Shown piece after piece: positions 1,301-45,711 of a stretch of 64,000 nucleotides of DNA. Made by a program: the position numbers and the translations under genes. Source of the DNA: Halovenus salina (GTDB taxonomy: Archaea > Halobacteriota > Halobacteria > Halobacteriales > Haloarculaceae); assembly GCF_026410925.1 (NCBI RefSeq), contig NZ_CP112972.1:2232001-2296000 (forward strand), read 5' to 3'. Position 1 is the first letter of the stretch, and every line of letters starts with the position of its first letter. The notes below the pieces were generated by a model that was not told where the DNA came from, did not search any database, and saw only the letters and a list, made by a program, of their open reading frames with translations.

Positions 1301-2646
1301 ACCCTCCGATAGTCGAACCCGATTGTCTCCATCTCGTCACTATCCAGGAAACCCATGACGTCAACCACGAGTGGCTTTTCGGCCATCGCCTCGAAGATTT
1401 GTAAATACTTCAGTTCCAGGAATGGTTCATGTGGCGTTGCCACCACGACTGCGTCAACGTCTCGGAACTGCAACTCACTTCGAATCTTAGCGTCGAACTC
1501 CTCGGCCATTGCATCGTCGTCCGCGTGAGGGTCGTATCCTTCTACCTGCACCGAGTACTCCTGCAGCCGATCTATCACGCCATCCACAGCAGACGTCCGA
1601 ATATCACCAACTCCTTGCTTGTACGCCAATCCGAGCACTAACACCGTACTTTCTTGGAGTACCTTTCCACACTCGTTCAGTCCACGCAGCGTCAACTCCG
1701 CGACGTGGCGCGGCATATACTCGTTTATTTCTCGGCCCTGTTGCATCAGTTTTGGTGAGTAGCCGTTGCGTTCAGACTCATAAATAATATAGAACGGATC
1801 AACGGGAATGCAGTGTCCGCCGACCAACCCGGGACCGTACTCCTCGTGGAAGTTCCACTTCGTCCCGGCAGCGTCGAGCACATCGTGGGTGTCTATACTG
1901 AGCGCGTCACAGGTAACTGCGAGTTCGTTCATGAGTGCGATGTTTAAGTCCCGCTGGACGTTCTCAGCGACCTTCGCGGCCTCAGCAACCTCTATTTCCG
2001 GCGCTCGATGGACACCCACCTCAACAATCATCTCGTACAGGCGAGCAATCTCGTCAAGTGCCTCTTCGTCGTGTCCGCTGACGATTTTCACGACGTCGCG
2101 CAGTCCGTGTTCGTCATCGCCGGGAACCATCCGCTCGGGAGAGTAACCGTACGCGAAATCCTCGCCAGCAGTAAGCCCTGAGGTTTCTTCGATAGCAGGT
2201 ACTAGCACCTCGCGTGTCGCGCCCGGATATACCGTTGACTCCAGAACAACTGTCGTACCTTTCTTGAGGTGTCGACCGACCGTCCGCCCAGCACTACTGA
2301 CGTACTCTAGATTCGGGTTTTTCATCTCGTCAACGGGCGTTGGCACACCCACAAGCATGTAGTCCGCACGTTCGATTGGTGTCGAGTCGACAGTAAACTG
2401 GATGTTCGACTCCGCTATTTTCTTGTCGCTTAGCTCCTGTGTCGGGTCCGTCCCGTTTCGAAACCCAGCTATTTTCTCCTCGCTGACATCGTAGCCAACG
2501 ACATCAAGTCCTTCGCGGTCGAACTCGATAGCCAGTGGCAACCCAACGTAACCCAGCCCCACGACACAGACAGTCCGGCCCTTGATTCGCTCTATCTGCG
2601 TACTTTCACTCGCCCGCTTCTCGTCGGAATCAGTCGTCTCGTTCAT
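1297..2646 (-). CDS. UDP-sugar 6-dehydrogenase (UDP-glucose / UDP-N-acetylhexosamine dehydrogenase family)
   Basis: This 449-residue enzyme oxidises a nucleotide sugar twice at C6 to the uronic acid using NAD+. The Rossmann motif GLGYVGLP is at about residues 30-37, and the catalytic cysteine sits in GGHCIPVDPF near residue 279; both are hallmarks of the family. The C-terminal NAD/UDP-sugar domain (SAVDGVIDRL, VVATPHEPF) is complete. It overlaps the next gene upstream by 4 bases, implying translational coupling. A second enzyme of the same family lies directly upstream, so the two probably act on different substrates, for example UDP-glucose and UDP-N-acetylglucosamine. Sequence by eye cannot decide which does which. 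Confidence 0.88.
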   Translation of the reverse strand: MNETTDSDEKRASESTQIERIKGRTVCVVGLGYVGLPLAIEFDREGLDVVGYDVSEEKIAGFRNGTDPTQELSDKKIAESNIQFTVDSTPIERADYMLVGVPTPVDEMKNPNLEYVSSAGRTVGRHLKKGTTVVLESTVYPGATREVLVPAIEETSGLTAGEDFAYGYSPERMVPGDDEHGLRDVVKIVSGHDEEALDEIARLYEMIVEVGVHRAPEIEVAEAAKVAENVQRDLNIALMNELAVTCDALSIDTHDVLDAAGTKWNFHEEYGPGLVGGHCIPVDPFYIIYESERNGYSPKLMQQGREINEYMPRHVAELTLRGLNECGKVLQESTVLVLGLAYKQGVGDIRTSAVDGVIDRLQEYSVQVEGYDPHADDDAMAEEFDAKIRSELQFRDVDAVVVATPHEPFLELKYLQIFEAMAEKPLVVDVMGFLDSDEMETIGFDYRRV

Positions 2647-4019
2647 CTATACCCACCCCCAATGGTGTACGTTCGATGATCTTTATCCGCTAGATCAAGC
2701 GATGCACGCCCATCAATAACTACCGATCCCACCTCGCGCCCAAGTCGCTCCCAGTTCAAATCGTCGAACTCCTCGTGGGGAGTCACCATAACCATGCCGT
2801 CGAAGTCGTACTCGTATACCGACTCTAGTTCGATCGGCGCCACCTCGAATGTGTCAAACTCCTCCAAAATTGGATCTACACCGTATACATCAGCCCCTGC
2901 GGCCGACAGTTCCTCGGCAATCGCAAGCGATGGTGAGGCGCGAATTTCCTCGACACCAGGGCGATAGGTCAACCCCAGAATCAACACAGATGCTTCATCC
3001 ATCGCCAGTCCTTCCGCGTCGAACTCTTCACGTAACTTCCTGACAGTAAAGTCTGGCATCGAATCGTTCACCTCACGCGCCGTCTCCAGCACCGGCGCGT
3101 CCGTCTCGAACGGTTCGATTACGAAGTACGGATAGAACGGAATACAGTGCCCACCAACCCCAGGACCGGGATCATGAATGTCACAGAACGGCTGTGTATT
3201 TGCCACTTCGATGGCCTCCCGAACATCTACCCCAAACTCATCCGTGAACGTCGCCAGCTCGTTTGCAAGCGCGATGTTCACGTCACGATACAGCCCCTCG
3301 AACACCTTCACACACTCTGCCGTCGTCGCATCTGACACCGAAATCACGCCCTCGCTGTTGATCTCCTCGTACAGCGCGGCTGCCACCTGTGCACTCTCTT
3401 CGTCGACACCCCCAATTACTTTCGGGTACGTGCCGCGAATGTCCTGCAGTGCCCGGCCACTCGACGTGCGCTCGGGACAAAAAGCCACGCCGAATTCCTC
3501 GCGGTCGAGCCCCGACACCTTAGCAAGCCGCGGCGTCACCCGAGCAGTAGTAGTTCGCGGAGGGACAGTACACTCAATAATCACCAAGTCACCAGCGTCG
3601 AGGCCCTCGCCGATATCTTCAACGACAGCGTCCAGTATCGACAGATCCGGTTCGTTCTCGTCGGTTATCGGCGTTGGGACGATCACCACGTGAACAGTGG
3701 CGTCCTCGGCAGCCCCAACTGTGTCAGTCGTCGCCTGCAACCGCTCCTTGGCGACCATCTCGCCAACGAGTGCATCCAGCCCGGGTTCGCGCTTGACGTG
3801 ACAGTCTCTGTCGTTTACCGTCTCGACAACCTCCGGATCGATATCCGCACCGACCACATTCCCGGATACTTCTGCATATGCACCGGCAAGCGGGAGCCCC
3901 ATCTTGCCAAGACCGTAGACAGCAACCGGGAAATCACCACGTACGAACGCCTCGCGAATCGCGTCGCTTGCCAGCTCTTGCCCGTACAGTCGCCCATCGA
4001 CGTCACGGCTCAAGCTCAA
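2643..4019 (-). CDS. Second nucleotide-sugar dehydrogenase (WbpA/WecC-like)
   Basis: This 458-residue protein has a Rossmann motif GLGKMGLP at about residues 36-43, the substrate loop around EGLYRDVNIALANE, and a catalytic cysteine in GGHCIPFYP near residue 290. It is clearly paralogous to its downstream neighbour but diverged, with a longer N-terminal extension. In this operon context, followed by a Gfo/Idh oxidoreductase, an aminotransferase and a hexapeptide acetyltransferase, it fits the first step of the UDP-2,3-diacetamido-uronate pathway (UDP-GlcNAc to UDP-GlcNAc-uronate). That substrate is inferred from context. It overlaps both neighbouring genes by 4 bases. Confidence 0.85.
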   Translation of the reverse strand: MSLSRDVDGRLYGQELASDAIREAFVRGDFPVAVYGLGKMGLPLAGAYAEVSGNVVGADIDPEVVETVNDRDCHVKREPGLDALVGEMVAKERLQATTDTVGAAEDATVHVVIVPTPITDENEPDLSILDAVVEDIGEGLDAGDLVIIECTVPPRTTTARVTPRLAKVSGLDREEFGVAFCPERTSSGRALQDIRGTYPKVIGGVDEESAQVAAALYEEINSEGVISVSDATTAECVKVFEGLYRDVNIALANELATFTDEFGVDVREAIEVANTQPFCDIHDPGPGVGGHCIPFYPYFVIEPFETDAPVLETAREVNDSMPDFTVRKLREEFDAEGLAMDEASVLILGLTYRPGVEEIRASPSLAIAEELSAAGADVYGVDPILEEFDTFEVAPIELESVYEYDFDGMVMVTPHEEFDDLNWERLGREVGSVVIDGRASLDLADKDHRTYTIGGGYR

Positions 4020-32876: not shown

Positions 32877-33647
32877 ATGTACCTTGGAGACGAGGCTTGG
32901 CCGGACCTTGCATCGTACTTCGAGTCCGAATCGCTCGCGCTGGTGCCGGTTGGCTCGACAGAACAACACGGGCCACACCTCCCGGAGGGAACCGACCATC
33001 TTATCGCCGAGGCACTGGCCCGAGAGGCGGCCGCACAGACCGGCTACCTCTGTACCCCGACGGTGAACATCGGCGTGAGCCCACACCATCGCCAGTTTCA
33101 CGGCACTATGTGGGTCGACCCTCCTGTCTTCCGGGAGTACATGGAGTCACTGGCGCGAAACCTCACATACCACGGCGTCGACCGCATCATCTTCGTGAAC
33201 GCCCACGGCGGCAACATCCAGCACCTCCGCGAGGTCGGCCGGCGACTCCACGAGGACGGCACGGCCTACGCGCTCGAGTGGATGTGGGACGAGAGCATTC
33301 CCCAGTTAGTCGATGACTGTTTCGAGACGAACGGCCCTCACGGCGGCCCGAAGGAGACGGCGATGATTATGCACATCGCCAACGAGCTGGTCCACGAGGA
33401 CAGGCTGACCGATGCCCGCGACGACGGCCTCGTCGACTGGGGTCGGGAGACCGGCCGTCAGTTCGGCGCACGGACGTTCTACGACGCAATCGAAAACACA
33501 CCGAACGGAGTACTCGGCGACCAGACCGACGCCACTCCGGAGAAAGGCGAGCGACTGTTCGAGGCCGCGGCCGAACAGCTGTGCAAGCTCAGCGAGTGGC
33601 TCGCCGACCGCGACGAGTCGGAGCTACTCCCGCGCGAACACGTCTGA
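32877..33647 (+). CDS. Creatininase-fold amidohydrolase (possible ArfB-type deformylase)
   Basis: The 256-residue enzyme has the metal-site motifs of the creatininase family: LVPVGSTEQHGPHLPEGTD near residue 20, SPHHRQFHGTM, FVNAHGGNIQHL and the distal NGPHGGPKETAMI. In archaea one branch, ArfB, removes formate from the first F420/riboflavin intermediate (FAPy), and halophiles use this fold for that step; the exact substrate here is an inference. The last base of its TGA stop is the first base of a 111-bp palindromic element. Confidence 0.85.
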   Translation: MYLGDEAWPDLASYFESESLALVPVGSTEQHGPHLPEGTDHLIAEALAREAAAQTGYLCTPTVNIGVSPHHRQFHGTMWVDPPVFREYMESLARNLTYHGVDRIIFVNAHGGNIQHLREVGRRLHEDGTAYALEWMWDESIPQLVDDCFETNGPHGGPKETAMIMHIANELVHEDRLTDARDDGLVDWGRETGRQFGARTFYDAIENTPNGVLGDQTDATPEKGERLFEAAAEQLCKLSEWLADRDESELLPREHV

Positions 33648-33757
33648 TAATGATTGTTGCGAGTCGTTACCGCCGTCGGGAAACGAGACGCGGGTCTCAC
33701 GCCGTGAAACACTGATATTCGTGACGTGGTCACGAAAATAACCACAACAATCACTAT
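33647..33757. repeat. 111-bp structured inverted-repeat element, copy 1
   Basis: The ends are 15-base inverted repeats (ataatgattgttgcg here; atagtgattgttgcg in the other copies; cacaacaatcactat at the right). Inside are three further hairpins: gagac/gtctc, a cgtg/cact stem and tcgtgac-gtg-gtcacga. It has the same length and orientation as the copies at 36928 and 42958, with about a dozen substitutions. It begins on the last base of the creatininase-fold gene stop codon. No coding function is evident. Confidence 0.88.
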
Positions 33758-33820
33758 GAAGCCGTCCAGCCAAGCCGGGATGACAATCGTTATTCCGTAT
33801 GAGCCAGTAGAGCCTGACAG

Positions 33821-33893
33821 GCGCGGCTAGTTCAGCGGACAGAACGTCTGGTTCCGGACCAGAAGGTCAAGGGTTCAAATCCCTTGTCGCGCG
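33821..33893 (+). tRNA. tRNA-Arg (CCG)
   Basis: A 73-base cloverleaf can be drawn. The acceptor stem is gcgcggc with gtcgcgc (one G-T pair), the D arm contains tagttcagcggacagaa, the anticodon stem is tctgg/ccaga around loop ttccgga (anticodon CCG), and the T arm is aaggg-ttcaaat-ccctt. The discriminator is G; CCA is not encoded. It reads CGG codons. Confidence 0.95.
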
Positions 33894-33977
33894 CTTTCTA
33901 CGAGGAGTAGACGTGACGAGCGAAAGCAAAAGCGAGGATTTGAACCACGCGAGACGAACGGAGTGAGTCTCGCCATC

Positions 33978-34004
33978 GGGTTCAAATCCCTTGTCGCGCG
34001 CTTT
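33978..34004 (+). repeat. Duplicate of the tRNA-Arg 3' end (att-like)
   Basis: These 27 bases are identical to 33871-33897, covering the T arm, acceptor 3' strand and the first bases after the tRNA. The two lie 107 bases apart in direct orientation. Between them, near 33934-33950, sits aggatttgaacc, an inverted T-arm-like piece. Such duplications arise when an integrase uses the tRNA 3' end as attachment site; no integrase remains here. Confidence 0.8.
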
Positions 34005-34064
34005 TTATCACCGAGGCTCTCTCCCGATGAAACAGACTATCCGTCTGGCACACGTTCTCTCTGT

Positions 34065-34535
34065 ATGACGATAGATATCGGCGATTCCGTGACCATCGAG
34101 TACACGGGACGACTCGACGACGAGACCGTGTTCGACACATCCCGCCAATCTGTTGCCGAGGAGACGGGTCTTGTCGAGGCCCAGCCAGACCGGGAGTACG
34201 CGCCGTTGACGGTCGACATCGGCGACGAGCAGGTCATCGAGGGGCTCGAAGAGGGGCTTATTGGCCTCGAAGCCGGACAGACTGAGACGCTGACAATTCC
34301 GCCCGAGAAGGCTTACGGCGAGCCAAGCGAGGACAACATCCAGGAGTTCGAAACCGACGCGCTCCGCGAGATGCTCGGCGGCCAGACACCTGAGGAGGGG
34401 TCGTATCTCGAAGCCGAGAACGGCAGCCAGGGCGAAGTCGTCCATGTCGACGAGGAAGTCGTTCGGGTTGATTTCAACCCTGGTCTCGCCGGCGAAACGC
34501 TGACGTTCGAGGTCGACATCATCGACGTCAACTAG
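34065..34535 (+). CDS. FKBP-type peptidyl-prolyl isomerase (SlyD-like)
   Basis: The 156-residue product starts at ATG 34065 (MTIDIGDSVTIEYTGRLDDETVFDTS), the classic FKBP beginning. It contains an insert domain (about 75-130) typical of archaeal and SlyD-type FKBPs, then returns to the FKBP core (VRVDFNPGLAGETLTFEVDIIDV). It should catalyse prolyl isomerisation and act as a folding helper in the cytoplasm. A longer frame upstream reads through tRNA-derived sequence and is not the real start. Confidence 0.92.
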   Translation: MTIDIGDSVTIEYTGRLDDETVFDTSRQSVAEETGLVEAQPDREYAPLTVDIGDEQVIEGLEEGLIGLEAGQTETLTIPPEKAYGEPSEDNIQEFETDALREMLGGQTPEEGSYLEAENGSQGEVVHVDEEVVRVDFNPGLAGETLTFEVDIIDVN

Positions 34536-34605
34536 ACAAACTCTAGCAAGACACCACCCCCGCAACTTACCGGTCTGGACCACCAACCGGGTATGTGTCT
34601 TGATT

Positions 34606-35046
34606 ATGAACGAGGGAGATCTATCCCGGCCGTCGGTCGACTCGCCTGGCGGAGGACAATCACTCCACTGCACGGCGTGTGAAGCGGCGCTCCAGTCGCC
34701 CGGACGAGACACCGTCTCGTTTCTACTTCTCGACCGACTCACAATCCCGCTTGTCGGGTGTGCCGAGCATCTCGAAGCGTTCCGTTCACTCTGTAGCCTT
34801 GCAACCGACGGGAGCGCCGAGCTTCTGGAGTACCGACCGGCCGGTGGCGTTCGCTGTCCGGGCTGTCGCCACGCACCCCGCGAGCCAGAACAGGCGATTG
34901 TTCCTGTCGGTAGCGGTGGGCTTGCCATACTCGCCTGCGAATCCCACCAGTCAGACATACTCGATCGGTTCCGAACTGGCCTGGAGGTACGACGCCATCT
35001 CACGTCGTCGCTCGACGAATCGCTTACGCGGTCAGCGATTAAATAG
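34606..35046 (+). CDS. Haloarchaeal protein with two CxxC pairs
   Basis: The 146-residue product contains CTACE near residue 22 and CPGCRH near 84, plus single cysteines (GCAEH, LCSLA, ACESH) that could complete metal sites. It has no recognised enzymatic motif. A TTG two codons earlier is an alternative start. I cannot assign a function. Confidence 0.7.
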   Translation: MNEGDLSRPSVDSPGGGQSLHCTACEAALQSPGRDTVSFLLLDRLTIPLVGCAEHLEAFRSLCSLATDGSAELLEYRPAGGVRCPGCRHAPREPEQAIVPVGSGGLAILACESHQSDILDRFRTGLEVRRHLTSSLDESLTRSAIK

Positions 35047-35281
35047 AGTGTCCGCGTAGTCGACTTCTGTACGCGCAGGACGACGCTTTGCCACCGAGTC
35101 AGCGGTAACCGTCTCCATCCGCGGTTGAGTCGAGTTATGTACGCAGGACGTCGCCGAAGCCCCGAAAACAAGCGGGAACAAGCGTCCAACGAGAAGTGGT
35201 GTTTATCAATATTAGAACCAGTTCGACGCCCCCGTCTTCCAGTCGATAAGTACAATTTTCCGGGGGTGGAATCGGGCCACG

Positions 35282-35914
35282 ATGCACCTCGTCCTCGATT
35301 ACGGCGGCGTCATCGTCGAACATGGTGACGAACGCGACCACGCAGACATTCTTGGCGTAGACCCCGAGACAGAGCCATACCCGGGTTGGCTCGCGTACTT
35401 CGCGTTCCGTGACGGGCTCGTCCAGAGTACAGCTGGGTACCTCGACGTGCTCTCGACGCTCACGGGGGCGTCCCGCGAGGCCTGCCGTACCTATCTCGAA
35501 ACGACCTGGCTCAGCCCGGCGTTTCCCGAGGAACACGTCGAGGTTCTTCGAGAACTTGCTGCCGACCACACGCTGGTTCTGTTCAGCAATATGGCTCGCC
35601 CGTGGGTCGAGACGGTCCTCTCGGAACACGGCGTCGTCGACTGTTTCGAAGACCTCGTCGTCTCTTCGGAGCTTCGTCGGTCGAAACCACACCCCAGGGG
35701 GTACGTCGAGGCGCTCCCGGACGACGACGCTTCGGTCGCCTTTGTCAGCGACGAGTACAACGAGGACCTCCTGATGGGCGAGACGTTCGGTATGCGCTCT
35801 ATCTGGGTCGAGCAGGACGACGAAACCCCATACAGAGAGCCCGATGTCCGCATCTCGGCATTCAGTGAACTGCTCGACGTCGTGTCGACAGATGACCTCT
35901 CGCCTGGTCGGTGA
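35282..35914 (+). CDS. HAD-superfamily hydrolase
   Basis: The 210-residue protein begins MHLVLDYGGVIVE, which supplies the nucleophile Asp of HAD motif I in the DxGGV variant (as in YihX-like and related phosphatases). LVLFSNMARPW is motif II, SSELRRSKPHPRGYVEAL holds the motif III lysine and VAFVSDEYNEDLLMGE is motif IV. The cap lies between motifs I and II. It probably dephosphorylates a small phosphorylated metabolite. A gataagt TATA-like element lies about 35 bases before the ATG. Confidence 0.87.
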   Translation: MHLVLDYGGVIVEHGDERDHADILGVDPETEPYPGWLAYFAFRDGLVQSTAGYLDVLSTLTGASREACRTYLETTWLSPAFPEEHVEVLRELAADHTLVLFSNMARPWVETVLSEHGVVDCFEDLVVSSELRRSKPHPRGYVEALPDDDASVAFVSDEYNEDLLMGETFGMRSIWVEQDDETPYREPDVRISAFSELLDVVSTDDLSPGR

Positions 35915-36032
35915 CTCCTCCCGCAACGCCCTGTCGAGGAATGCAACCTCATACCACAAGCTGATGCATGAATTTCCATGCCTGAGTATTACTGCACGTA
36001 GTATAAGTCACCAGCGACGAAATTTCCTCGCG

Positions 36033-36575
36033 ATGACATCGTATGATACAGAGTCTGAAGCTGACGGACGATACGTCGTTGCATTCGTCGAAAGTGCAGG
36101 CGAGGTCTCCCCTGTCTTCCAGCGGAAAGTAAACGATATCTTCGAGAAACATCTCCCGCACGTCGACGCCGAGGCGTGGTACCGAACAGAAGACGTTGTC
36201 CTCGCGTTCAGCGAGGTTAGAGATGAAATCGGTTCCAAGACGATGATGCAGGGTGGCACCGAGTCAGCGAAGGCGATTCCGTGGCCCGACTCCGTCTCGA
36301 CGCTTTCGGACGCATTGACCGCCCTGATTGATCTGCACAGAGATGCCTACAGGAACAGCAATCAGACGAATCCGGCGGGGAACTACACCTTCGAAAAACT
36401 GGACAACAGAGCGGCGAGAGTAGGTATTCTCGAAGGATTTCCGTACGGTCCTGGGTTCGCAGAGGGGGTCTTCAAACAGGTTGCCGCCGACTTTGGCCCA
36501 GCGGACGCGCGACCAACCCTCGACGAAGCCAACCCGAACACAGACGAGAGTCACGCGTGGGAGTTGACCTGGTAG
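36033..36575 (+). CDS. Haloarchaeal protein of unknown function
   Basis: The 180-residue product starts at ATG 36033 (MTSYDTESEADGRYVVAFVESAGEVSPVFQRKV). An agtataag TATA box at 35998-36005 lies about 30 bases upstream, marking a leaderless gene; upstream in-frame codons overlap the HAD gene and are rejected. The protein is soluble, with a central helix and a segment EGFPYGPGFAEGVFKQVAADF suggesting a ligand-binding fold. I do not recognise the family with certainty. Confidence 0.7.
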   Translation: MTSYDTESEADGRYVVAFVESAGEVSPVFQRKVNDIFEKHLPHVDAEAWYRTEDVVLAFSEVRDEIGSKTMMQGGTESAKAIPWPDSVSTLSDALTALIDLHRDAYRNSNQTNPAGNYTFEKLDNRAARVGILEGFPYGPGFAEGVFKQVAADFGPADARPTLDEANPNTDESHAWELTW

Positions 36576-36675
36576 AGTCTCCCACTCCCGACTGTTTTTG
36601 GTGGTATTTTCCAACAATCAAACACAACACAGCGAGCGCAGCGGTGAGTGCCCCGAAAAAAGATAGGTACGGGCG

Positions 36676-36858
36676 TCAGTCGTCGTCAGAACCTTTCATC
36701 TCGCCGAGCTTATCGACGAGGTCGTCCGTCGAAGCCTCGGTATCGAAGGTTACCTCGCCGTCGTGTTCGGACTCGTGAACGTTGACGGCCTCCGTGTTGT
36801 CTTCGGTGTTCATCTCTTGGTTCTCTTGTTCTGACTCGTCGTAGCTTCCAAACCCCAT
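36676..36858 (-). CDS. DUF5786-like small acidic protein
   Basis: The 60-residue product begins MGFGSYDESEQENQEMNTED and ends FDTEASTDDLVDKLGEMKGSDDD. This short, acidic form, with MGFGSYDESEQ at the start, matches my memory of the haloarchaeal DUF5786 family, which has no known function. The cttttgtg TATA-like element about 27 bases upstream supports this start over a longer frame that reads into the 111-bp element. Confidence 0.72.
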   Translation of the reverse strand: MGFGSYDESEQENQEMNTEDNTEAVNVHESEHDGEVTFDTEASTDDLVDKLGEMKGSDDD

Positions 36859-36927
36859 ACAACGACGGAGTGTCTGACTGCACAAAAGCGGCGTGGTCCG
36901 ACAGAGCGCCGGCGACTGCCGTGTCTC

Positions 36928-37038
36928 ATAGTGATTGTTGCGAGTCGTTACCGCCGTTGGGAAACGAGACGTGGGTCTCACGCGGTGAAACACCGATAGT
37001 CGTGACGTGGTCACGAAAATAACCGCAACAATCACTAT
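36928..37038. repeat. 111-bp structured inverted-repeat element, copy 2
   Basis: Perfect 15-base terminal inverted repeats (atagtgattgttgcg / cgcaacaatcactat) enclose three smaller hairpins, including tcgtgac-gtg-gtcacga. The right end overlaps the first base (minus-strand reading) of the stop codon of the adjacent oxidoreductase gene. It differs from copy 3 at only two positions. Confidence 0.92.
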
Positions 37039-38459
37039 CAGGTGTCGTCGAGACGGCCGCCCAGTACCTTCGCAGCCACCAGTACCGGGTCCCAGACGGG
37101 ACTGAACGGTGGCGCGTACGCCAGATCGAGACGTTCGAGTTCCGAGACGGTCAGCCCGCCCTCAAGCGCCGTCGCGACCGTGTCGATGCGGATTGCCGCC
37201 CGGTCCTCGCCGGCAATCGTCCCGCCGAGTAGCCGGCCGGTTTCGCGGTCGGCGACCAACGTTACGGTCGTCTCGGCGTTTCCAGGATAGTAGCCCGAAC
37301 GTGACCCGGCGGTAACCGTCTCTGAGAGTGGGTCGAAGCCGGCCTCGCGGGCGCTGTCGTCGTCGACGATACCGGTCCGGCCACACTCCAGTTCGAATGC
37401 TTTCAGCACTGCCGTCCCGGCAATCGCTCCGACTGGCTCGGGGTCACCGGCGACGGTCTGGCCGATTGCGCGTCCAGCCCGGTTGGCCGTCAGCCCGAGC
37501 GGGACCCATTCCTGTGTTCCGGTGACGGTATGGCGCATCTCGGCACAGTCGCCGGCGGCGTACACTCCGTCGACGGAGGTCCGACCGTAGTCATCGGTCG
37601 TAATCGCACCGGAGTCACCGCACTCGACGTGGTCGGCGACGAGGTCGGTGTTCGGACGGATACCGATCCCCACGAGCGCGAGGTCGACATCGACAGCTCC
37701 GTCTGTCGCTTCGACGCGCTCGAGGCGACCCTCCCCCGCAAGTGACTCGACGGCGGTGTCGAGATGGAGGTCGACGCCCGCTTCGGCGAGAGAATCGACG
37801 ACGCGGTCACCGACTGCCTCTCCGAAGGGTGGAACAGGTCGCTCGGAACGCTGGTAGAGGTGTGTCTCCAGTCCCCGAGCACGGAACGCTTCGGCCATCT
37901 CGACGCCGACGTAGCCACCGCCGACGATTGCGACGGTCTCGGGTGGGTCGCGGTTGCGGTACTCCTCGACGACTTCGGTTACGTCGGCGTATCCCGCGTC
38001 GAACCCCTCCTCGCTGTCGGGAGGCGTGAGGAACGCCCGAACTGCGGCCGCGGAATCCATGTGATGCATCGTGAAGACGTCGTCGAGGTCGGTTCCTTCG
38101 ATTGGGGCGGTCAGCGCGCGGGCACCGGTCGCGACGAGGAGGTCGCCGTAGGGCTGTTCGAACGCCTCGTCTGGTCCCTGGACGGAGACAGTCTGGCTTT
38201 CGGGGTCGATATCAACGACTTCGTGGCCTCTGTGGAGGTCGATACCGCGCTCGGCGACCTCAGCGGGCGACAGCGAGAGCAGGTTATCGAGGCGCTCTAC
38301 CTCGCCTTTGATGTAGTAGGGCATCCCACAGTGGGCGTAGGAAATCCACTCGCTTTGCTCGTAGACGACGACCTCGCGGTCGGGGTCTTCGCGTTTGCAC
38401 TTGCTGGCTGCGCTCAGTCCGGCGGCGTCACCGCCGATGACTACAAACGGATCGCTCAT
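37038..38459 (-). CDS. CoA-disulfide reductase / NADH oxidase-like flavoprotein
   Basis: The 473-residue enzyme starts MSDPFVVIGGDAAGLSAA (FAD-binding GxGxxG variant). The redox motif ISYAHCGMPYYIKG near residue 40 places the single active-site Cys of CoA-disulfide reductases and NADH oxidases. VAIVGGGYVGVEMAEAF is the NAD(P)H-binding Rossmann and VDGVYAAGDCAEM the second FAD motif, followed by the dimerisation domain. Haloarchaea use such enzymes in low-molecular-weight thiol and peroxide homeostasis. Start chosen at ATG 38459, with a TATA-like cacttaga about 27 bases upstream. Confidence 0.9.
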   Translation of the reverse strand: MSDPFVVIGGDAAGLSAASKCKREDPDREVVVYEQSEWISYAHCGMPYYIKGEVERLDNLLSLSPAEVAERGIDLHRGHEVVDIDPESQTVSVQGPDEAFEQPYGDLLVATGARALTAPIEGTDLDDVFTMHHMDSAAAVRAFLTPPDSEEGFDAGYADVTEVVEEYRNRDPPETVAIVGGGYVGVEMAEAFRARGLETHLYQRSERPVPPFGEAVGDRVVDSLAEAGVDLHLDTAVESLAGEGRLERVEATDGAVDVDLALVGIGIRPNTDLVADHVECGDSGAITTDDYGRTSVDGVYAAGDCAEMRHTVTGTQEWVPLGLTANRAGRAIGQTVAGDPEPVGAIAGTAVLKAFELECGRTGIVDDDSAREAGFDPLSETVTAGSRSGYYPGNAETTVTLVADRETGRLLGGTIAGEDRAAIRIDTVATALEGGLTVSELERLDLAYAPPFSPVWDPVLVAAKVLGGRLDDT

Positions 38460-38563
38460 ACGCGAGTCTCTCTGTCCACCCATCTAAGTGTTTGTGAGCG
38501 ATTGGTTACCCCTCCTGGCTCTAAGTCGAGATATACAAACCGCTCGTGTCCGTATCGGTCGGT

Positions 38564-39535
38564 ATGGACGAAGATACGCGCGACAACGTGGTCCCCGGCA
38601 CCGACGAGGACCTCGACACGGCCGACGTCTGTGGTCCCGACTTCCGGGGCGAGACCGACATTGACGATTTGCTCGATACGTACGCGACGACGGGCTTTCA
38701 GGCGACCCATCTCGCCGAGGCAGTCGAGATTACAGAACAGATGCAGGCCGAGGACGCGACGATATACCTCACACTCACCTCGAACATCATCTCGTCGGGG
38801 CTGCGCGAGACCGTCGCCGCCCTCGTCCGGGAGGGTCACGTCGATGTCATTATCACGACCTCCGGCTCGCTGACCGAGGATGTCATCAAGACGGCAAAGC
38901 CGTTCAAGATGGGCGAGTGGGACGCAGACGAGGCCGAGCTCCGCGAGCAGGGCATCAATCGCCTCGGCAACATCTACGTCCCCTCCGACCGCTACGTCTG
39001 GCTGGAGGAGTACCTCTATGACTTCTTCGACGACTTCTTCGCCGAGGAGTCGGTCCGAACGCCGACTGCCTTCGCACGCGAGTTGGGTGAGACACTCGAC
39101 GACGAGGATTCGGTGCTGAAACAGGCCGCCGACAACGACGTGCCGGTGTACTGTCCGGCCCTTACCGACGCCGAGGTCGGCAACTTCCTCTACTACTACC
39201 GGCGCGAGCACGACATGGACATCGGCATCGAAATCCTCGACGACTACGACTCGCTCATCGAGGACGGCCTGCTTTCGGAGACGACCGGCCTGATTGCCGT
39301 TGGCGCGGGCGTCCCGAAACACCACGCCATCATGACGAACCTGTTCCGTGGCGGGGCTGACTACGCCGTCTACATCTCGACGGGGATGGAGGGTGACGGC
39401 TCACTCTCAGGCGCACCCCCGGACGAGGCTGTCTCGTGGGGGAAAATCAAAGAAGAGGATACCAACTACACGCAAATCGAGGCCGAGGCGACACTCGTCT
39501 TCCCGCTGCTCGTCGCCGGCGCGTTTATGTCCTAA
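38564..39535 (+). CDS. dys: Deoxyhypusine synthase
   Basis: The 323-residue product has the deoxyhypusine synthase fold with NAD-binding segments (LTSNIISSGLRETVAALVREGHVDVIITTSGSLTEDVIK) and the catalytic lysine in GAGVPKHHAIMTN near residue 262. GGADYAVYISTGMEGDGSLSGAPPDEAVSWGKI completes the active site. It transfers the aminobutyl group of spermidine (or uses agmatine in archaea) to a lysine of aIF5A. A TATA-like gatatac near 38530 favours the ATG at 38564 over an upstream GTG at 38546. Confidence 0.95.
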   Translation: MDEDTRDNVVPGTDEDLDTADVCGPDFRGETDIDDLLDTYATTGFQATHLAEAVEITEQMQAEDATIYLTLTSNIISSGLRETVAALVREGHVDVIITTSGSLTEDVIKTAKPFKMGEWDADEAELREQGINRLGNIYVPSDRYVWLEEYLYDFFDDFFAEESVRTPTAFARELGETLDDEDSVLKQAADNDVPVYCPALTDAEVGNFLYYYRREHDMDIGIEILDDYDSLIEDGLLSETTGLIAVGAGVPKHHAIMTNLFRGGADYAVYISTGMEGDGSLSGAPPDEAVSWGKIKEEDTNYTQIEAEATLVFPLLVAGAFMS

Positions 39536-40899
39536 CGCGGCCGAATCCGGACCAGTTTGTCATCGCGTTCGGTGGGGAAGCCGTCGCCCGCCCGCCCGTC
39601 GCGATTCGAGGTTACCGCGTACAGCTCGCCGTCTGGCCCTTCTTCGAGGTGACGAATCCGGCCGAGTTCGTCGGCGAGAAGTGGCGTACTTGCGGCGTGA
39701 TACTCTTCGTCCATCCAGTCAGCGTCGTGGCGACCTGCGTGGTCGGCCGACAGACGGCTCTCGTCCTCGGCGAGCGTGATGGCGACGATCTGCTGGCTGA
39801 TGAGTCCGCCCACGAGCAGACGGCCCTGGAGCGACGGAACCGCCTCGCCGGTGTAGAAGACTGAACCGGAGGGTGCCCAGGACGGTGCGCCCGCGACTGG
39901 GGGTTGGTAGTCGGTGCCCGAATAGGAGTCGAACCCCTCGCTGTTTCGTGCCGCTGGCCAGCCGTAGTTCTCGCCCGCCCGGAGCACGTTCACCTCGTCC
40001 CCGCCGCCGGGGCCGTGTTCGGTGATTACTGGTGTCCCGTCGGGCAGCCAGGCCAGCCCCTGTGGATTCCGGTGGCCGTACGTGTACACGCGGGGGTCAC
40101 CGCCCTCGATGTCGGGATTGTCGGCCGGCGTGGAGCCGTCCGGCTCGACGCGCAGAATCTTCCCGCCGAGGGTTCCGGGGTCGGCGATTGCGTCGGGGTC
40201 GTCGAGCGCGGGGTCGCCGTCGCCGGCCGCGACCCAGAGGTAGTTCGCCGGCCCGAACGTGATGCGGCCGCCGTTGTGGTAGGCGTCGGCAGGGATACCG
40301 TCGACGATGACCCAGGAGTTCTCGTTCTGGTCGTCGGCGGTCGTGTCGAAGGCGACGACGCGGTTGGTGCGGCCGTCGTCTGTTTCGGTCGTGAAGTAGG
40401 CGTACACCAGCGGTACGTCCGGGTAGTTTGGGTGGATGGCCAGACCGAGTAGCCCGCCCTCACCGCCCTCGACGTACCAGCTATCCTCGTCTGACCCTGG
40501 GGGGAGAGACTCAGCGTCGACAACTGCATCTGGTTCGGTGACTGTCTCCCCCTCTCCCTGCGCGAGCGTCAGGATGCGACCTGTCCGCTCTGTGAGAAAC
40601 AACTCACCGTCCGGGGAGAACGCAATATCCCACGGAATCTCTAAGTTCTCGGCGAGCACCTCGATCTCGTAGCCGCCCTGTTCTGGGGCTGTCTCCGGTG
40701 CCGTCCAGTCGGCGTCGTACCCGTCCCACTGCGCTATCTCGTGGCTGACGCCCACGTCGTACGGCATCTCATCGACGCCTGTCTCGCCCGGTGTCGGTGT
40801 CGCCGACTCGTCGTTCGACTCCGAGAGACAGCCGGCGGCCGCCGACAGCGAGAGCGCGCCTGCCAGACCAAGCAGCCGCCGCCGCGTATACCGTGTCAT
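39532..40899 (-). CDS. PQQ-dependent sugar dehydrogenase-like Tat lipoprotein
   Basis: The 455-residue product begins with a twin-arginine signal and lipobox (MTRYTRRRLLGLAGALSLSAAAGC, Cys24), so it is exported folded and lipid-anchored outside. The body is a six-bladed glucose/sorbosone dehydrogenase beta-propeller: IPWDIAFSPDGELFLTERTGRI, GLLGLAIHPNY, HNGGRITFGPANYLWVAAGDG, GGKILRVEPDG, TYGHRNPQGLAW. It probably oxidises aldoses; whether it binds PQQ cannot be told by eye. Its stop codon overlaps that of the convergent deoxyhypusine synthase gene. Confidence 0.88.
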   Translation of the reverse strand: MTRYTRRRLLGLAGALSLSAAAGCLSESNDESATPTPGETGVDEMPYDVGVSHEIAQWDGYDADWTAPETAPEQGGYEIEVLAENLEIPWDIAFSPDGELFLTERTGRILTLAQGEGETVTEPDAVVDAESLPPGSDEDSWYVEGGEGGLLGLAIHPNYPDVPLVYAYFTTETDDGRTNRVVAFDTTADDQNENSWVIVDGIPADAYHNGGRITFGPANYLWVAAGDGDPALDDPDAIADPGTLGGKILRVEPDGSTPADNPDIEGGDPRVYTYGHRNPQGLAWLPDGTPVITEHGPGGGDEVNVLRAGENYGWPAARNSEGFDSYSGTDYQPPVAGAPSWAPSGSVFYTGEAVPSLQGRLLVGGLISQQIVAITLAEDESRLSADHAGRHDADWMDEEYHAASTPLLADELGRIRHLEEGPDGELYAVTSNRDGRAGDGFPTERDDKLVRIRPR

Positions 40900-40992
40900 G
40901 ACTGACACTCACGGAGTTGCTGGCAAATGTCTTCTGGAACTGCCCACGGAACACCGACATGTCTTCGCCGGATCGGCCGGGGAGCGCAGGCA

Positions 40993-40999
40993 TTTATAT
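40993..40999 (+). promoter_or_regulatory. TATA box before the antiporter gene
   Basis: The heptamer tttatat lies 29 bases upstream of the GTG at 41022. With haloarchaeal spacing of 25-30 bases, transcription would start at or one base before that codon. Confidence 0.5.
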
Positions 41000-41021
41000 G
41001 GATAGCGTGAGGAGTACCGGC

Positions 41022-42950
41022 GTGGAGATATTCGATACAGCCACAGCCACTGCCCCGGGCGGTCTCTCTCCGCTGGTCTCCTCGGAGGGGCCGGAGATGC
41101 TGATTATCGTTGCTCTCATCCTTGCGCTGGGCGTGACCGCACAGGTGCTCGCAGACCGGTTTCAGGTCCCGAGCGTGCTCTTTTTGATTCTCGCTGGCGT
41201 CGCTGTCGGCCCGAAAGGGATTAGCCTTGTCACGCTCGACACCTTCGGCGACTCGTTGACCACCATCGTCGGCATCAGCGTCGCTATCATCGTCTTCGAG
41301 GGGGCCTTCCACCTCAAGATAGCGAAACTCAGGGAGGCACCGTCGGCGACTATCCGTCTGATTACTGTCGGGGCGATTATCTCGTTCGGAGGAACGGCGC
41401 TCGCGGTCAGATACCTGCTCGGCGTCGAGTGGGGTATTGCCGCGCTAATCGGGGCCTTGCTGGTGGCGACTGGGCCAACAGTCATCACGCCCATTCTGGC
41501 GGTCGTTCCGGTCCGGGACCGCGTCGCCGCGGCACTCGAAACGGAGGGTATCGTCAACGACGTGAGTGCCGCCATCTTCGCGGCGGTCATCTTCAAACTA
41601 TTGGCCTCGCAGGGAACCGACCCGGCGGACTATCTCGTCGAGTTCGTCCAGCGCCTGAGCGTCGGTGTCTTCGTCGGCCTGGTGACGGCAGGGGTCCTGT
41701 GGTTTCTGGTGGTCTACGTCGACAGTCCGTCGGCCTGGACGCCACAGAACGTCCGCCTGATGACACTCGCGGGCGCGATTCTCGCCTTCAGTCTGGCAGA
41801 TGTGATTGCGACGGAGTCCGGTGTCGCGGCCGTCGCGACGGCCGGGGTCCTCCTTGGAAATCTGAATCTTCCGTACGAAGAGCAGATAGAGGAGTTCAAA
41901 GGTGACGTGACGATTGTCGTCCTCTCGTTTGTCTTCATCGCGCTTGCGGCGCTCATCGAGTTCGATACGCTGATTGATTTAGGTCTCTCAGGACTCGCCG
42001 TCGTCGCTATCGTCGCACTCGTGTTGCGCCCGGCGCTGGTCTTTCTCTCGACCGCTGGGGCGAAGTTCACGCGCGGCGAGAAGCTGTTTATGAGCTTTGC
42101 CGGGCCCCGTGGTATCATTCCGGCGAGCGTGGCGACGCTGTTTGCGATCCAGCTCCAGACGCCGGCCCCGCCGTCGAATCCGGAGGGTGCGAACATCCTT
42201 GCGGGGACGGTCTTTCTGGTTATCTTTCTGACTGTCATTTTCGAGGGCGGATTCGCGCGACAGATTGCCGAACGGTTACAGGTGATTCCAATGCGTGTAC
42301 TCATCATCGGCGGCGGACGTGTCGGGAGTGAACTAAGTGAACGACTCGAAGAACGCGGCGAGAACGTCGTCATTATCGAACACGACAGCGACCTGGCCGA
42401 AACCCTTCGGAGCGACGGCTTCACCGTCAAGGAGGGCGACGGAACCAACACGGAGTGTCTCAGGGAGGCCGGAGCGGACAACGCGAAGATAATCGTCGCC
42501 GCGACGGGTGACGACGACACCAACCTCCTCGTAACACAGCTCGCGGACTCGAAGTTCGACGTTCGCAAGGTAATCACCCGTGTCAACGACCCCGAGAACC
42601 GGAGTGCGTTCGAAGACCTCGGTATCGAAACTATCTCCGAGACGGGGTCGACGGCCTGGGCAATCGACAACCTCATCGAGCGGCCGGGCCTGTCGCGGTG
42701 GATGGCAGAACTCGGCCGGAGCGGCGATGTCCAGGAGATAGAGGTGACCGACGAGGGACTCGTCGACGAGACAATCGGGGACCTGAACACGACCCTCCCC
42801 GACGGCTGTATCGTCGCACTTGTCACCCGTGACGACGAGAACACGGTCCCGGACCCACAGATGCGGATACAGTACGGCGACCGCCTCACGGTGCTCGGTC
42901 AGACCGAAGCCGTCGACGGGGCAATCGCACAACTACACCCACACGACTGA
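41022..42950 (+). CDS. Cation:proton antiporter (CPA1/NhaP-like) with C-terminal RCK domain
   Basis: From the leaderless GTG at 41022 (642 residues), a 12-13 helix Na+/H+-exchanger domain (about 20-420; FLILAGVAVGPKGI, GALLVATGPTVITPIL, TEGIVNDVSAAIFAAV) leads into a TrkA-N Rossmann domain (MRVLIIGGGRVGSELSERLEERG, about 424-540) and a TrkA-C domain. The transporter exchanges Na+ or K+ for H+; the RCK domain senses NAD(H) or nucleotides. A tttatat TATA box at 40993-40999 supports the GTG start; in-frame starts at 40917, 40962 and 40998 lie at or upstream of that box and would be untranscribed from it. Confidence 0.85.
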   Translation: MEIFDTATATAPGGLSPLVSSEGPEMLIIVALILALGVTAQVLADRFQVPSVLFLILAGVAVGPKGISLVTLDTFGDSLTTIVGISVAIIVFEGAFHLKIAKLREAPSATIRLITVGAIISFGGTALAVRYLLGVEWGIAALIGALLVATGPTVITPILAVVPVRDRVAAALETEGIVNDVSAAIFAAVIFKLLASQGTDPADYLVEFVQRLSVGVFVGLVTAGVLWFLVVYVDSPSAWTPQNVRLMTLAGAILAFSLADVIATESGVAAVATAGVLLGNLNLPYEEQIEEFKGDVTIVVLSFVFIALAALIEFDTLIDLGLSGLAVVAIVALVLRPALVFLSTAGAKFTRGEKLFMSFAGPRGIIPASVATLFAIQLQTPAPPSNPEGANILAGTVFLVIFLTVIFEGGFARQIAERLQVIPMRVLIIGGGRVGSELSERLEERGENVVIIEHDSDLAETLRSDGFTVKEGDGTNTECLREAGADNAKIIVAATGDDDTNLLVTQLADSKFDVRKVITRVNDPENRSAFEDLGIETISETGSTAWAIDNLIERPGLSRWMAELGRSGDVQEIEVTDEGLVDETIGDLNTTLPDGCIVALVTRDDENTVPDPQMRIQYGDRLTVLGQTEAVDGAIAQLHPHD

Positions 42951-42957
42951 CCGTTTC

Positions 42958-43068
42958 ATAGTGATTGTTGCGAGTCGTTACCGCCGTTGGGAAACGAGAC
43001 GTGGGTCTCACGCGGTGAAACACCGATATTCGTGGCGTGGTCACGAAAATAACCGCAACAATCACTAT
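42958..43068. repeat. 111-bp structured inverted-repeat element, copy 3
   Basis: It is nearly identical to copy 2 (two substitutions, one turning the inner hairpin to tcgtggc-gtg-gtcacga, which stays paired as RNA through G-U). It lies between the convergent antiporter and MMPL genes, starting 8 bases after the antiporter stop and overlapping the first base of the MMPL stop codon. Terminal repeats are a perfect 15 bases. Confidence 0.92.
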
Positions 43069-45578
43069 CAGTCCTGTGGCGCTGGCTCTCCGGTGGCTGT
43101 CGACGCATCGAGTGACAGTGAGGCGTAGCGACTCCAGAGCAGGAGGACACTCGGCAACACGAGCAGACTGACCAGAAACGCCGTCACGAGCGCGACGACG
43201 ACGATGCTACCGAAGCTCTGGACCTGTGGATGGGGGACCAGCGCAATCGTTGCGAACGAGCCCGCCGACGTGAGCGTACTGCCAAGCAACGCCCCGCCGG
43301 TACCGGTCACTGCGGCCCGGAGTGCTTCGATTTCGTTGTTCCCCTCGCGCAGTTCGTCGGCGAACCGGTCGCCGATGTGGATGTTGTAGTCGATGCCGAG
43401 ACCGACGACCAGACTCATCAGGAGGGCAGTCAAAAGCGTCAGCGGGATCTCGAGCAGATACATCCCGGCGATGACAAGCCCGACGACGAGGAAAATTGGC
43501 CCGGAGACGGCCGCGCCGAGGGTTGCGCTGCCGTGCATGAGCCGGAAGACGAGAATCAACGCAACGACGATTGCCACCAGCGCGACAACCATGGTCGTGA
43601 CTACGCCGCCGATGACGTTGTCGAGAACCGCCTCGTTGACGGTAATCGGGCCGGCAGCAGTCGCCGTCCGCTGTCCGTCACCTTCCATGACGGCGGCCCC
43701 GTCGTCGAGTTTCGGGGCGATCGCGCTCGATTCCGAGAAGTCGACGTCGAGCGAGAGGGTTACCAGCAGCGACTGGTACTCACCGTCGACCCGCTCGATG
43801 ACTCGCTCGGCAGTTTCGCTGTCGGCCGCGTAGAGGGCATCGTACACCGCGGCGAGATTCTGGTCGGGGATCCCGTCGTCATCTGTGTCAGCGTCCGCGA
43901 AGACATCCGCAAACTCCTCGTCTTCGGATGCGACCTGTTGCATCGCGGTCAGCGGGGACCGCTCGGCCGGGGTCGCCGACTGGTCGAGCAACAGCCCTTC
44001 CTGTGCGAGACGCTCTACGCTGGCGTCGATGTCTTCGAGCGTCGAGGGGCTGGTCACGTCGTCTTCGACGAGTATCTCGGATTTGATGGCGTCGTCGGCG
44101 TTTGCAGGCTGGTAGACCTCCCCGACGTGGCGTTGCTGTGTGAATATCTCGGTCTGCTCCCAGCCCAGCGGCTCTGGCAGTTGCTGTTTCCACTCTGCGA
44201 CGTCGCCGTCGGCCTGCTGGTAGCTCTCTTGGTCGAGCTGTGTCCAGGCCACACCGCCCCCAGCGGCAACGAGTACCGCGAGCACCAACACGACGGGAGC
44301 CCCGCGCCTGGCGAGGGTGACCGTTTTTTCGAGCATCGGCCGCAGATACGAGCCGTGTCCCAGCGGGGCCTTCCGGCGGTCGAGACCGATGCGTTCGAAC
44401 GTGCGGTCGATGCTGACTTTCAGTGCAGGGACGGCCGTGACGAAGATGCCAAGCGCCGAAACGACGCCGAGCGTCACGGTGATACCGATATCACGGATGC
44501 TCGGCAGCGGATTAGCCAGGTTGGCGAGAAAGCCGATAGCGGCGGTTGCGGTCACGAGAATCAGCGCCGTCGCGACGAGAGACAGGCCTCTGGCCATTGG
44601 CTTCCGGATTCCCTCTCCTGGGCCGCGTTCCTCGCGGTAGCGGTTGAAGACGTGAAAGCCGAAGTCGATACTCAACCCTGCAATCAACACGACCGGAATA
44701 ATCATTATCACGCCTGCCTCAACGCCGAGCCACCCCAGGAGACCGAACGTCCACAGCACCGACAGGATGACACCAGCCATGCCGACGACCACATCGACCA
44801 GGTCGCGGTACGCAAACGCCAGAATAAACAGGATGAGCGCCAGGGTAATCGGCAAGACGAGTTCGACCATCTCGCCGAAGAAGTGTGAGCTCGCCTCGGA
44901 GTAGGCGTTAGAACTCAACACGAAGAAGCCGTCATCCTCATACTCTGTTGCCGTCTCGTAGAGGACTGTCTCGGCATCTTCCTGAGGACTGTCACCCGCT
45001 GTGTCGAGCACAACCAGGGTGCGTCGGTCGGACGAAGTCGTCCCCTCGTGGTCGGCAGGGAGGAACTGCCCGGCCTGTGGGTTCTCGTCGAGAAGCTGGC
45101 CGATGGCTGTCTCGACTTCGGCTTCACTCATCGATTCGAGCGCCTGAATCTGATCGTCGAGCGAGGCGCTGCTCCCGGCGGATTGCGTGGCGACGAGGTT
45201 CTCGATACCCCGGACGCCGTCGTCGTGAAGCGCCGCCTGGACGGTCTCGTTTTCGGTGACGCGTTGCTGGTAGCGCAATCCCGCAAGCAGTGACTCCTTC
45301 GACAGCGCGTTCCCGTCCTCATTCCAGACGTACACCGGCTCGACCTCCCTCGTCGAACCTTTGACTACCGCTTTGCTGTACGCGTCGTCGATGTACTGTG
45401 ACTTCTGGACGCGGTCGATGTCGTCGAACTGCGAGGCTGTACCACCCGACTGACTCGAGGTATTTAGCTGTGGGATACCGGCCATGATGCCACCCGTCAG
45501 AAGCACCATCACCAACAGCACGATGACGTTGTGCTCCGTGACGAAGCCGGCTGCCCGACGGAGAAATCGCTGTATCAT
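43068..45578 (-). CDS. MMPL/RND-family transporter
   Basis: The 836-residue protein has the duplicated RND topology. The first half has a helix at about 15-35, a large extracytoplasmic domain (about 40-210) and a five-helix bundle containing GLSIDFGFHVFNRYREERG. The second half has an extracytoplasmic domain (about 400-640) and helices with VGLGIDYNIHIGDRFADEL. MMPL proteins use the proton gradient to move lipids, hopanoid- or isoprenoid-like molecules. No lipid biosynthesis gene is adjacent. The ATG at 45578 is preferred, since a cttataa TATA box lies about 30 bases upstream. Confidence 0.85.
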   Translation of the reverse strand: MIQRFLRRAAGFVTEHNVIVLLVMVLLTGGIMAGIPQLNTSSQSGGTASQFDDIDRVQKSQYIDDAYSKAVVKGSTREVEPVYVWNEDGNALSKESLLAGLRYQQRVTENETVQAALHDDGVRGIENLVATQSAGSSASLDDQIQALESMSEAEVETAIGQLLDENPQAGQFLPADHEGTTSSDRRTLVVLDTAGDSPQEDAETVLYETATEYEDDGFFVLSSNAYSEASSHFFGEMVELVLPITLALILFILAFAYRDLVDVVVGMAGVILSVLWTFGLLGWLGVEAGVIMIIPVVLIAGLSIDFGFHVFNRYREERGPGEGIRKPMARGLSLVATALILVTATAAIGFLANLANPLPSIRDIGITVTLGVVSALGIFVTAVPALKVSIDRTFERIGLDRRKAPLGHGSYLRPMLEKTVTLARRGAPVVLVLAVLVAAGGGVAWTQLDQESYQQADGDVAEWKQQLPEPLGWEQTEIFTQQRHVGEVYQPANADDAIKSEILVEDDVTSPSTLEDIDASVERLAQEGLLLDQSATPAERSPLTAMQQVASEDEEFADVFADADTDDDGIPDQNLAAVYDALYAADSETAERVIERVDGEYQSLLVTLSLDVDFSESSAIAPKLDDGAAVMEGDGQRTATAAGPITVNEAVLDNVIGGVVTTMVVALVAIVVALILVFRLMHGSATLGAAVSGPIFLVVGLVIAGMYLLEIPLTLLTALLMSLVVGLGIDYNIHIGDRFADELREGNNEIEALRAAVTGTGGALLGSTLTSAGSFATIALVPHPQVQSFGSIVVVALVTAFLVSLLVLPSVLLLWSRYASLSLDASTATGEPAPQD

Positions 45579-45711
45579 CTGGGAGGGTCTACTGTACTTG
45601 CTCACTTATAACGGGTAACTCCTGTTCGCGGAGAGAATACGACAGGTAATGTTATATATGTGAATCAAAAACAACTTTTATATACTACAACTGATCTCTG
45701 AGGGGCCACCG

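Follow-up and report, generated by a model that had tools for sequence, protein, structure and literature searches.

A 109-bp DNA element occurs three times in a 64,000-nucleotide stretch of the Halovenus salina genome (contig NZ_CP112972.1, positions 2,232,001 to 2,296,000; hereafter the window), and its copies lie on the exact TGA stop codons of genes far more often than on equivalent nearby sites. The element is probably best read as a transposon that is non-autonomous, targets C-TSA-G (TSA being TCA or TGA) and has a real stop-codon preference whose mechanism is unexplained. An original prediction, made from the letters of the window, had described three structured inverted-repeat elements abutting stop codons and had offered two readings: a miniature inverted-repeat transposable element (MITE) that targets or recreates stop codons, or a bidirectional 3'-end processing or termination element. 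The first is supported: the element has terminal inverted repeats (TIRs), duplicates 3 bp of its target and is present in many copies, a relative has empty sites, and exact stops are enriched in four sets of copies.

Ends, target duplication and empty sites

The predicted positions of the three copies (33647-33757, 36928-37038 and 42958-43068), their 111-bp length and their shared plus orientation were borne out. The outermost A and T of each copy are part of a repeated flanking triplet, hence the 109-bp element listed below in window coordinates.

33648-33756, plus strand: copy 1, 109-bp core, TIR pairing at 13/15 positions, outer span C1:2265647-2265757
33645-33647, plus strand: left target duplication of copy 1, TGA, the stop codon of a creatininase-family gene
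33757-33759, plus strand: right target duplication of copy 1, TGA
36929-37037, plus strand: copy 2, 109-bp core, TIR pairing at 15/15 positions
36926-36928, minus strand: left target duplication of copy 2, TCA (TGA on the minus strand)
37038-37040, minus strand: right target duplication of copy 2, the TGA stop of an FAD/NAD oxidoreductase gene (37038-38483, minus strand)
42959-43067, plus strand: copy 3, 109-bp core, TIR pairing at 15/15 positions, identical to C1:551786-551896
42956-42958, minus strand: left target duplication of copy 3, TCA
43068-43070, minus strand: right target duplication of copy 3, the TGA stop of an MMPL-family transporter gene (43068-45605, minus strand)

The flanking triplets read TGA...TGA around copy 1 and TCA...TCA around copies 2 and 3, whose 109-bp element runs TAGTGATTGTTGCG...CGCAACAATCACTA, and in each pair one triplet serves as a gene's in-frame TGA stop. 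As 111-bp units, copies 2 and 3 agree at 109/111 positions and copy 1 agrees with either at 104/111. The proposed 15-base TIR holds fully in copies 2 and 3 but, with 13/15 positions, is not exact in copy 1. An end of the element had been thought to supply one base of the stop; all three copies do abut an in-frame TGA, but the outer A or T belongs to the duplicated triplet. Likewise, TGATAG is a tandem stop as had been read, made up of the duplicated target followed by the TIR tip.

Further copies were sought in the whole genome. Copy 3 as query returned 32 matches covering at least 90 of 111 positions at 85-100% identity, plus shorter ones, and a diverged second subfamily as query gave 19 further full or near-full places (72-100% identity, the query itself counted). 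After screening, a profile search over the loci found 54 distinct copies in this genome, 46 of them with identical flanking triplets. An earlier count, limited to copies with distinct flanks and 600 bp of sequence on each side, had given 53 copies, of which 25 were at stops and 45 had identical triplets; these 45 were used for the motif and siting analysis. With the target oriented to TGA, they carry C at -1 in 42/45 and G at +3 in 28/45. In the profile count over all loci (more than 95 positions matched, 250 bp on each side, distinct 40-bp flanks) there were 127 copies; 19 had no duplication and were left out of the class counts, and the triplet duplicated in the remaining 108 was TCA in 58, TGA in 49 and TTA in 1. 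The target site approaches the palindromic form GNC-TSA-GNC.

Another insertion sequence, beginning GTGTTCAGATAAG, interrupts or truncates two of the copies. This sequence, with ends GTGTTCAGATAAG / CTTATCTGAACAC, lies inside or at the edge of element copies at about 2645-3030 of locus L033 and about 1829-2775 of locus L128. A CRISPR-like array with the repeat GTTTCAGACGAACCCTCGTGGGGTTGAAGC lies just past the truncated copy in L128 (about 2800-3350; G000:C4).

Compared to the window, a largely collinear genome of the same genus (G003) lacks all three insertions: at 3/3 sites the alignment shows one TGA or TCA where the window has two, and the gene stops at that codon. Two further stop copies of H. 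salina that were tried (loci L005 and L028) are also both absent from G003, whose orthologues stop at the same codon, as TAG and TAA respectively. Each of the five aligned empty sites thus has a single triplet, TSA in three and another stop triplet in two. The flank matches are 75-94% identical, with a few intergenic junction bases loosely aligned, and the statement that the sites are empty rests on the gene ends.

Siting of copies at stop codons

Gene calls were made, after removing the element and one triplet, by a model of codon usage that had been trained on the H. salina genome. Among the 45 duplicated copies of this genome, 24 lie on an exact TGA stop, 16 are intergenic, 3 are no more than 30 bp from a gene end, 1 is near a start and 1 is inside a gene; in the profile count the stop share is 24/46. 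Equivalent nearby sites, weighted by a motif matrix derived from the non-stop insertions, predict 5.6% of stop-plus-intergenic copies on stops, and 24/40 were observed (p = 2e-20). An extended target motif was accordingly rejected as the source of the stop excess at these sites. When only gene-3'-proximal sites away from starts were considered, 24/31 were on stops compared to 22.5% expected (p = 1e-10).

The preference recurs in other genomes. Relatives, sampled from the best-scoring matches listed at no more than about 15 per genome, contributed 62 copies, of which 26 are at stops, 30 intergenic and 6 inside genes. For genomes outside the genus, represented by one member each, 10/22 copies are on stops (p = 7e-6). 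A later set, fetched because one genome (G013) seemed exceptional, added 42 new copies, 39 of them with a duplication. Stops were hit by 20/39 (G013 10/22, G005 10/15, G006 0/2; Fisher against nearby sites, p = 1e-8), or by 19/38 (p = 4e-8) without one doubtful case, an 82-bp call in locus L296 beside another copy. Stop siting is therefore non-random and the counts bear out a real preference for stops, contrary to the random placement, or lack of further copies, named in the original prediction as evidence against it.

We then expressed insertions relative to available sites, pooling the first and outside-genus sets (128/130 copies counted). The relative rate was 16.4 at the exact stop and 1.6 in the 15 bp before it; downstream it was 2.3 (+1 to +15), 2.0 (+16 to +60), 1.75 (+61 to +120) and 0.56 beyond +120. 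More than 15 bp upstream of the stop, where sites are mostly intragenic, it fell to 0.16-0.33, and this rarity means that selection clearly acts. Such a profile could in principle arise if insertion occurred at any C-TSA-G site and the stop excess represented the survivors after harmful insertions had been removed, stop copies being spared because the duplicated TGA leaves the protein unchanged. We regard this explanation as unlikely, though it deserves serious weight. Insertion 1-120 bp downstream of a stop ought to be about equally harmless, yet these sites received about 8 times fewer insertions (16.4 versus about 2; exact stop versus +1 to +60, Fisher p = 3e-11). Moreover, when the copies of H. 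salina were split at a 97% cut, young and old copies had an equal stop share (10/20 and 14/26), which argues against slow weeding. A preference arising at insertion is thus favoured over one produced by very strong selection.

Alternatively, the true target could be another feature, such as IS605-type palindromes or terminator-like hairpins, in which stops happen to lie. The SMR-A repeats of Haloquadratum are reported to target IS605/PATE palindromes (PMC3119063), several high-scoring G013 copies share flanks that form one palindrome-rich repeat family, and intergenic insertion sites fold slightly better than their controls (-13.0 versus -11.2 kcal/mol; p = 0.03). At the stops themselves, however, hit sites fold like control TGA stops (mean -14.1 versus -14.3 kcal/mol; p = 0.99) and have no extra symmetry (p = 0.84), so a target hairpin at stops was rejected and this explanation appears improbable. 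Since several of the best-scoring G013 copies lie in shared repeats, stops are one favoured target and certain repeats another.

Two side observations concern the sites. The G013 copies in palindrome-rich repeats are those at loci L137, L140, L141, L144 and L146, several at or near GGGTGGGACTGAAAGGGGC. A T at +11 follows 20/50 of the hit TGA stops and 10% of 228 untouched ones (p = 2.6e-6 before correction for 66 positions).

Inner structure and the wider family

The original prediction had placed three inner hairpins in each element. The window copies do fold better than shuffled sequences in 5/6 strand-copy cases (z -4.2 to -5.1), the sixth, copy 1 on the plus strand, being weak (z -1.96). 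The inner hairpins are not a family-wide feature. Across 60 copies the inner helices are paired in 57.0, 57.7 and 68.8% of cells compared to 92.6% for the TIR, and all seven pairs predicted by RNAalifold fall within the TIR, where columns 10/102 covary (G-C in 35 and A-T in 20 of the 60 copies). Inner hairpins were thus rejected as a conserved feature, only the TIR pairs holding well. Frame 1 of the window copies is open for 37 codons, but a reading frame spanning the element was also rejected, two other subfamilies having in-frame stops by eye.

These data bear on whether stop copies could be retained as a useful 3' end, either as a bidirectional terminator or as an RNA stabiliser. The TIRs could form a 15-bp RNA stem, 11/18 inner-helix pairs have at least one change on both sides, the whole structure including the TIR beats all 500 shuffles in cells paired and covariation score, and tandem in-frame stops TGATAGTGA (TGA-TAG-TGA) occur in 37/50 stop copies. 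Other TIR tips occur at the remaining stops, and tandem stops are therefore not strictly required. Against these points stand the random orientation to the gene (24 reading into the left end and 26 into the right), the poorly paired inner helices with predicted pairs confined to the TIR, the lack of a terminator-like site or an Rfam family match on the three window copies, and the location of about half of the copies away from stops, all of which make retention as a 3' end very improbable. A termination role of the element, as in the second reading of the original prediction, is not supported.

To follow the family beyond H. salina, copy 3 was used as query against 59 genomes and matched 13, the genome of origin included: 12/18 of the genus and one from another genus of the family. 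A covariance model (R1) built from 60 copies matched 29/392 genomes of the order, in 15/95 genera and six families, again counting the genome and genus of origin. Outside the genus we analysed 22 of 23 loci, one per genome, dropping L205, which could not be resolved. In 22/22 of these, 13 or 14 of 14 TIR positions pair and TSA stands on both sides, the outer length is 109-111 bp in 21/22 and 82 bp in 1/22, and by eye many carry the TTACCGC-like and GAAAAT-like subterminal motifs. In the first set the core is 109 bp in 100/108 cases, and subfamilies diverge at up to about 30% of positions while length hardly varies. Together, these results show a superfamily present in several families of the order, with a nearly rigid length, defined ends and a defined duplication.

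Variants were also seen. In one genome (G126), every match listed measures 82 bp between its outer ends (80-bp core), and the copy at L208 (1501-1582) has the same TIR type, a TGA duplication and a position on a TGA stop. In G008, loci L050 and L061 have quite different TIRs (ATACG..CGTTCGTGA type) with conserved subterminal and inner motifs unchanged. A named example is carried by the Halorubrum salinarum plasmid pHAR02 (84.5% identity to L195), found in a plasmid collection in which a window copy, a G013 flank and L209 each had no match. The flank of L008 partly matches Halorhabdus tiamatea, and one exact pattern searched in viral contigs gave no match.

The closest known repeats are the SMR-A elements of Haloquadratum walsbyi (HqIRS42, HqIRS43 and HqIRS55), which are described as about 110 bp long, with prominent inverted repeats and up to 54 copies; they have no transposase, their mobilisation is called enigmatic, their TIRs are unrelated to known transposons, and they prefer IS605-type/PATE near-terminal palindromes without a target duplication (PMC3119063). 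Like them, the element described here is about 110 bp long, gene-less, bounded by prominent TIRs, present in tens of copies per genome and marked by a target preference, and some of its copies sit in palindrome-rich repeats, although those repeats were not identified as IS605/PATE. Unlike them, it duplicates a 3-bp TSA and strongly prefers stop codons, neither of which is reported for SMR-A. Counting the outer A/T as TIR shrinks the duplication to one base, which could explain a report without duplication. Compared by description only, the element is probably of the same kind as SMR-A, and we term it SMR-A-like rather than a member because SMR-A is reported without the duplication found here. 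What is new relative to the account of such repeats in the one paper found on them (PMC3119063) is a superfamily spanning several families, its exact ends and duplication, and the codon-exact stop preference. By size alone, the 82-bp class (80-bp core) of G126 is likened to HqIRS41, an SMR-B repeat of 80 bp (PMC3119063). The Haloquadratum plasmid PL47 contained no copy by covariance model, profile or de novo TIR scan; a PL47 stretch as query matched 6 of 170 genomes of one family at only 67-76% identity, and a contig scan for the Haloquadratum chromosome returned Halorubrum, Halorientalis, Nanosalinarum and Haladaptatus but no Haloquadratum.

More generally, the element is MITE-like in being short and non-coding, with TIRs, a target duplication and, as we infer, mobilisation in trans. 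It departs from MITEs in general in its length, which hardly changes between subfamilies as little as about 70% identical, whereas MITE families need not keep an invariant length. The PIF/Harbinger duplication is of the TNA type, and IS5-type elements share a 3-bp TNA duplication. The 3-bp duplication of the present element is likewise of the TNA type, and a 3-bp target duplication is given for PIF/Harbinger elements in PMC2213677. Searches of the open-licence PMC literature listed nothing on stop-codon-seeking elements, which is no proof of absence.

The window also has a tRNA-Arg (CCG) at 33821-33894. A 30-base stretch over its 3' end (33871-33900) recurs at 97% identity 107 bp further on (33978-34007) and resembles an attachment-site remnant.

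Mobilisation and the meaning of a stop-codon preference

In the reading that we consider probable, each copy would be a gene-less DNA transposon, non-autonomous and belonging to a single haloarchaeal superfamily whose members measure about 110 bp. Their plan consists of 14-15-bp TIRs and asymmetric, conserved subterminal motifs around a variable middle, at a nearly rigid length. A transposase acting in trans would cut a short palindromic site near GNC-TSA-GNC and leave TCA or TGA duplicated; judging from the 3-bp TNA-type duplication, it may be a DDE enzyme like that of IS5/PIF-Harbinger. Insertions fall on in-frame TGA stops far more often than on equivalent sites, and because the stop is restored by the duplicated triplet and usually followed in frame by TAG-TGA from the TIR tip, the gene product remains unchanged. 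The stop preference would act at insertion and not through later selection.

Several points weigh against this transposon reading. To our knowledge a DNA transposase cannot read a frame, and we know of no ready mechanism for a codon-exact preference. What sets hit stops apart from the 228 untouched ones is mainly the C-TGA-G core, with minor shifts at -2 and +4. About half of all examined copies lie away from stops, including all but 1 of the 16 best-scoring G013 copies (10/22 for the further copies of that genome), and the pHAR02 copy abuts none of the genes in an incomplete table for that plasmid. The gene calls are codon-usage calls and not a curated annotation, and the background sites were drawn from the same loci, some overlapping, and are not fully independent.

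The search for a mobiliser, which covered DDE_Tnp_1 in the H. salina genome and 0.82 Mb of loci, adds to these points. A pattern scan of the genome showed no recognisable autonomous partner among the first approximately 100 of 126 matches listed. TIR-like end pairs 400-4000 bp apart in the 0.82 Mb of loci numbered 11, and no autonomous element was recognised among those inspected: a single copy, split by another insertion sequence, accounts for two of them, in L065 and L043 the paired ends belong to two small elements lying side by side, and between the ends in L189 the single open reading frame of at least 100 amino acids is 120 amino acids long. The ends of 30/39 loci matching DDE_Tnp_1 were inspected and none has the ends of this element; the DDE_Tnp_1 loci have detectable duplications of other kinds, and about one third of them have no detected ends.

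One way in which insertion could come to recognise stops is through coupling of target choice to translation termination or to mRNA, so that the insertion machinery would effectively read stop codons. We put this forward as a tentative and doubtful proposal. If true, stop-reading insertion would be a new safe-harbour strategy common to haloarchaeal families, with codon-precise placement where insertion is harmless.

The codon-exact stop preference recurs in several genomes. The data make two questions open to testing: how the insertion of DNA can favour stop codons, and which enzyme moves the element. In practical terms, the copies flag where genes end, and annotation could go astray if they were taken as extra coding sequence or as terminators.

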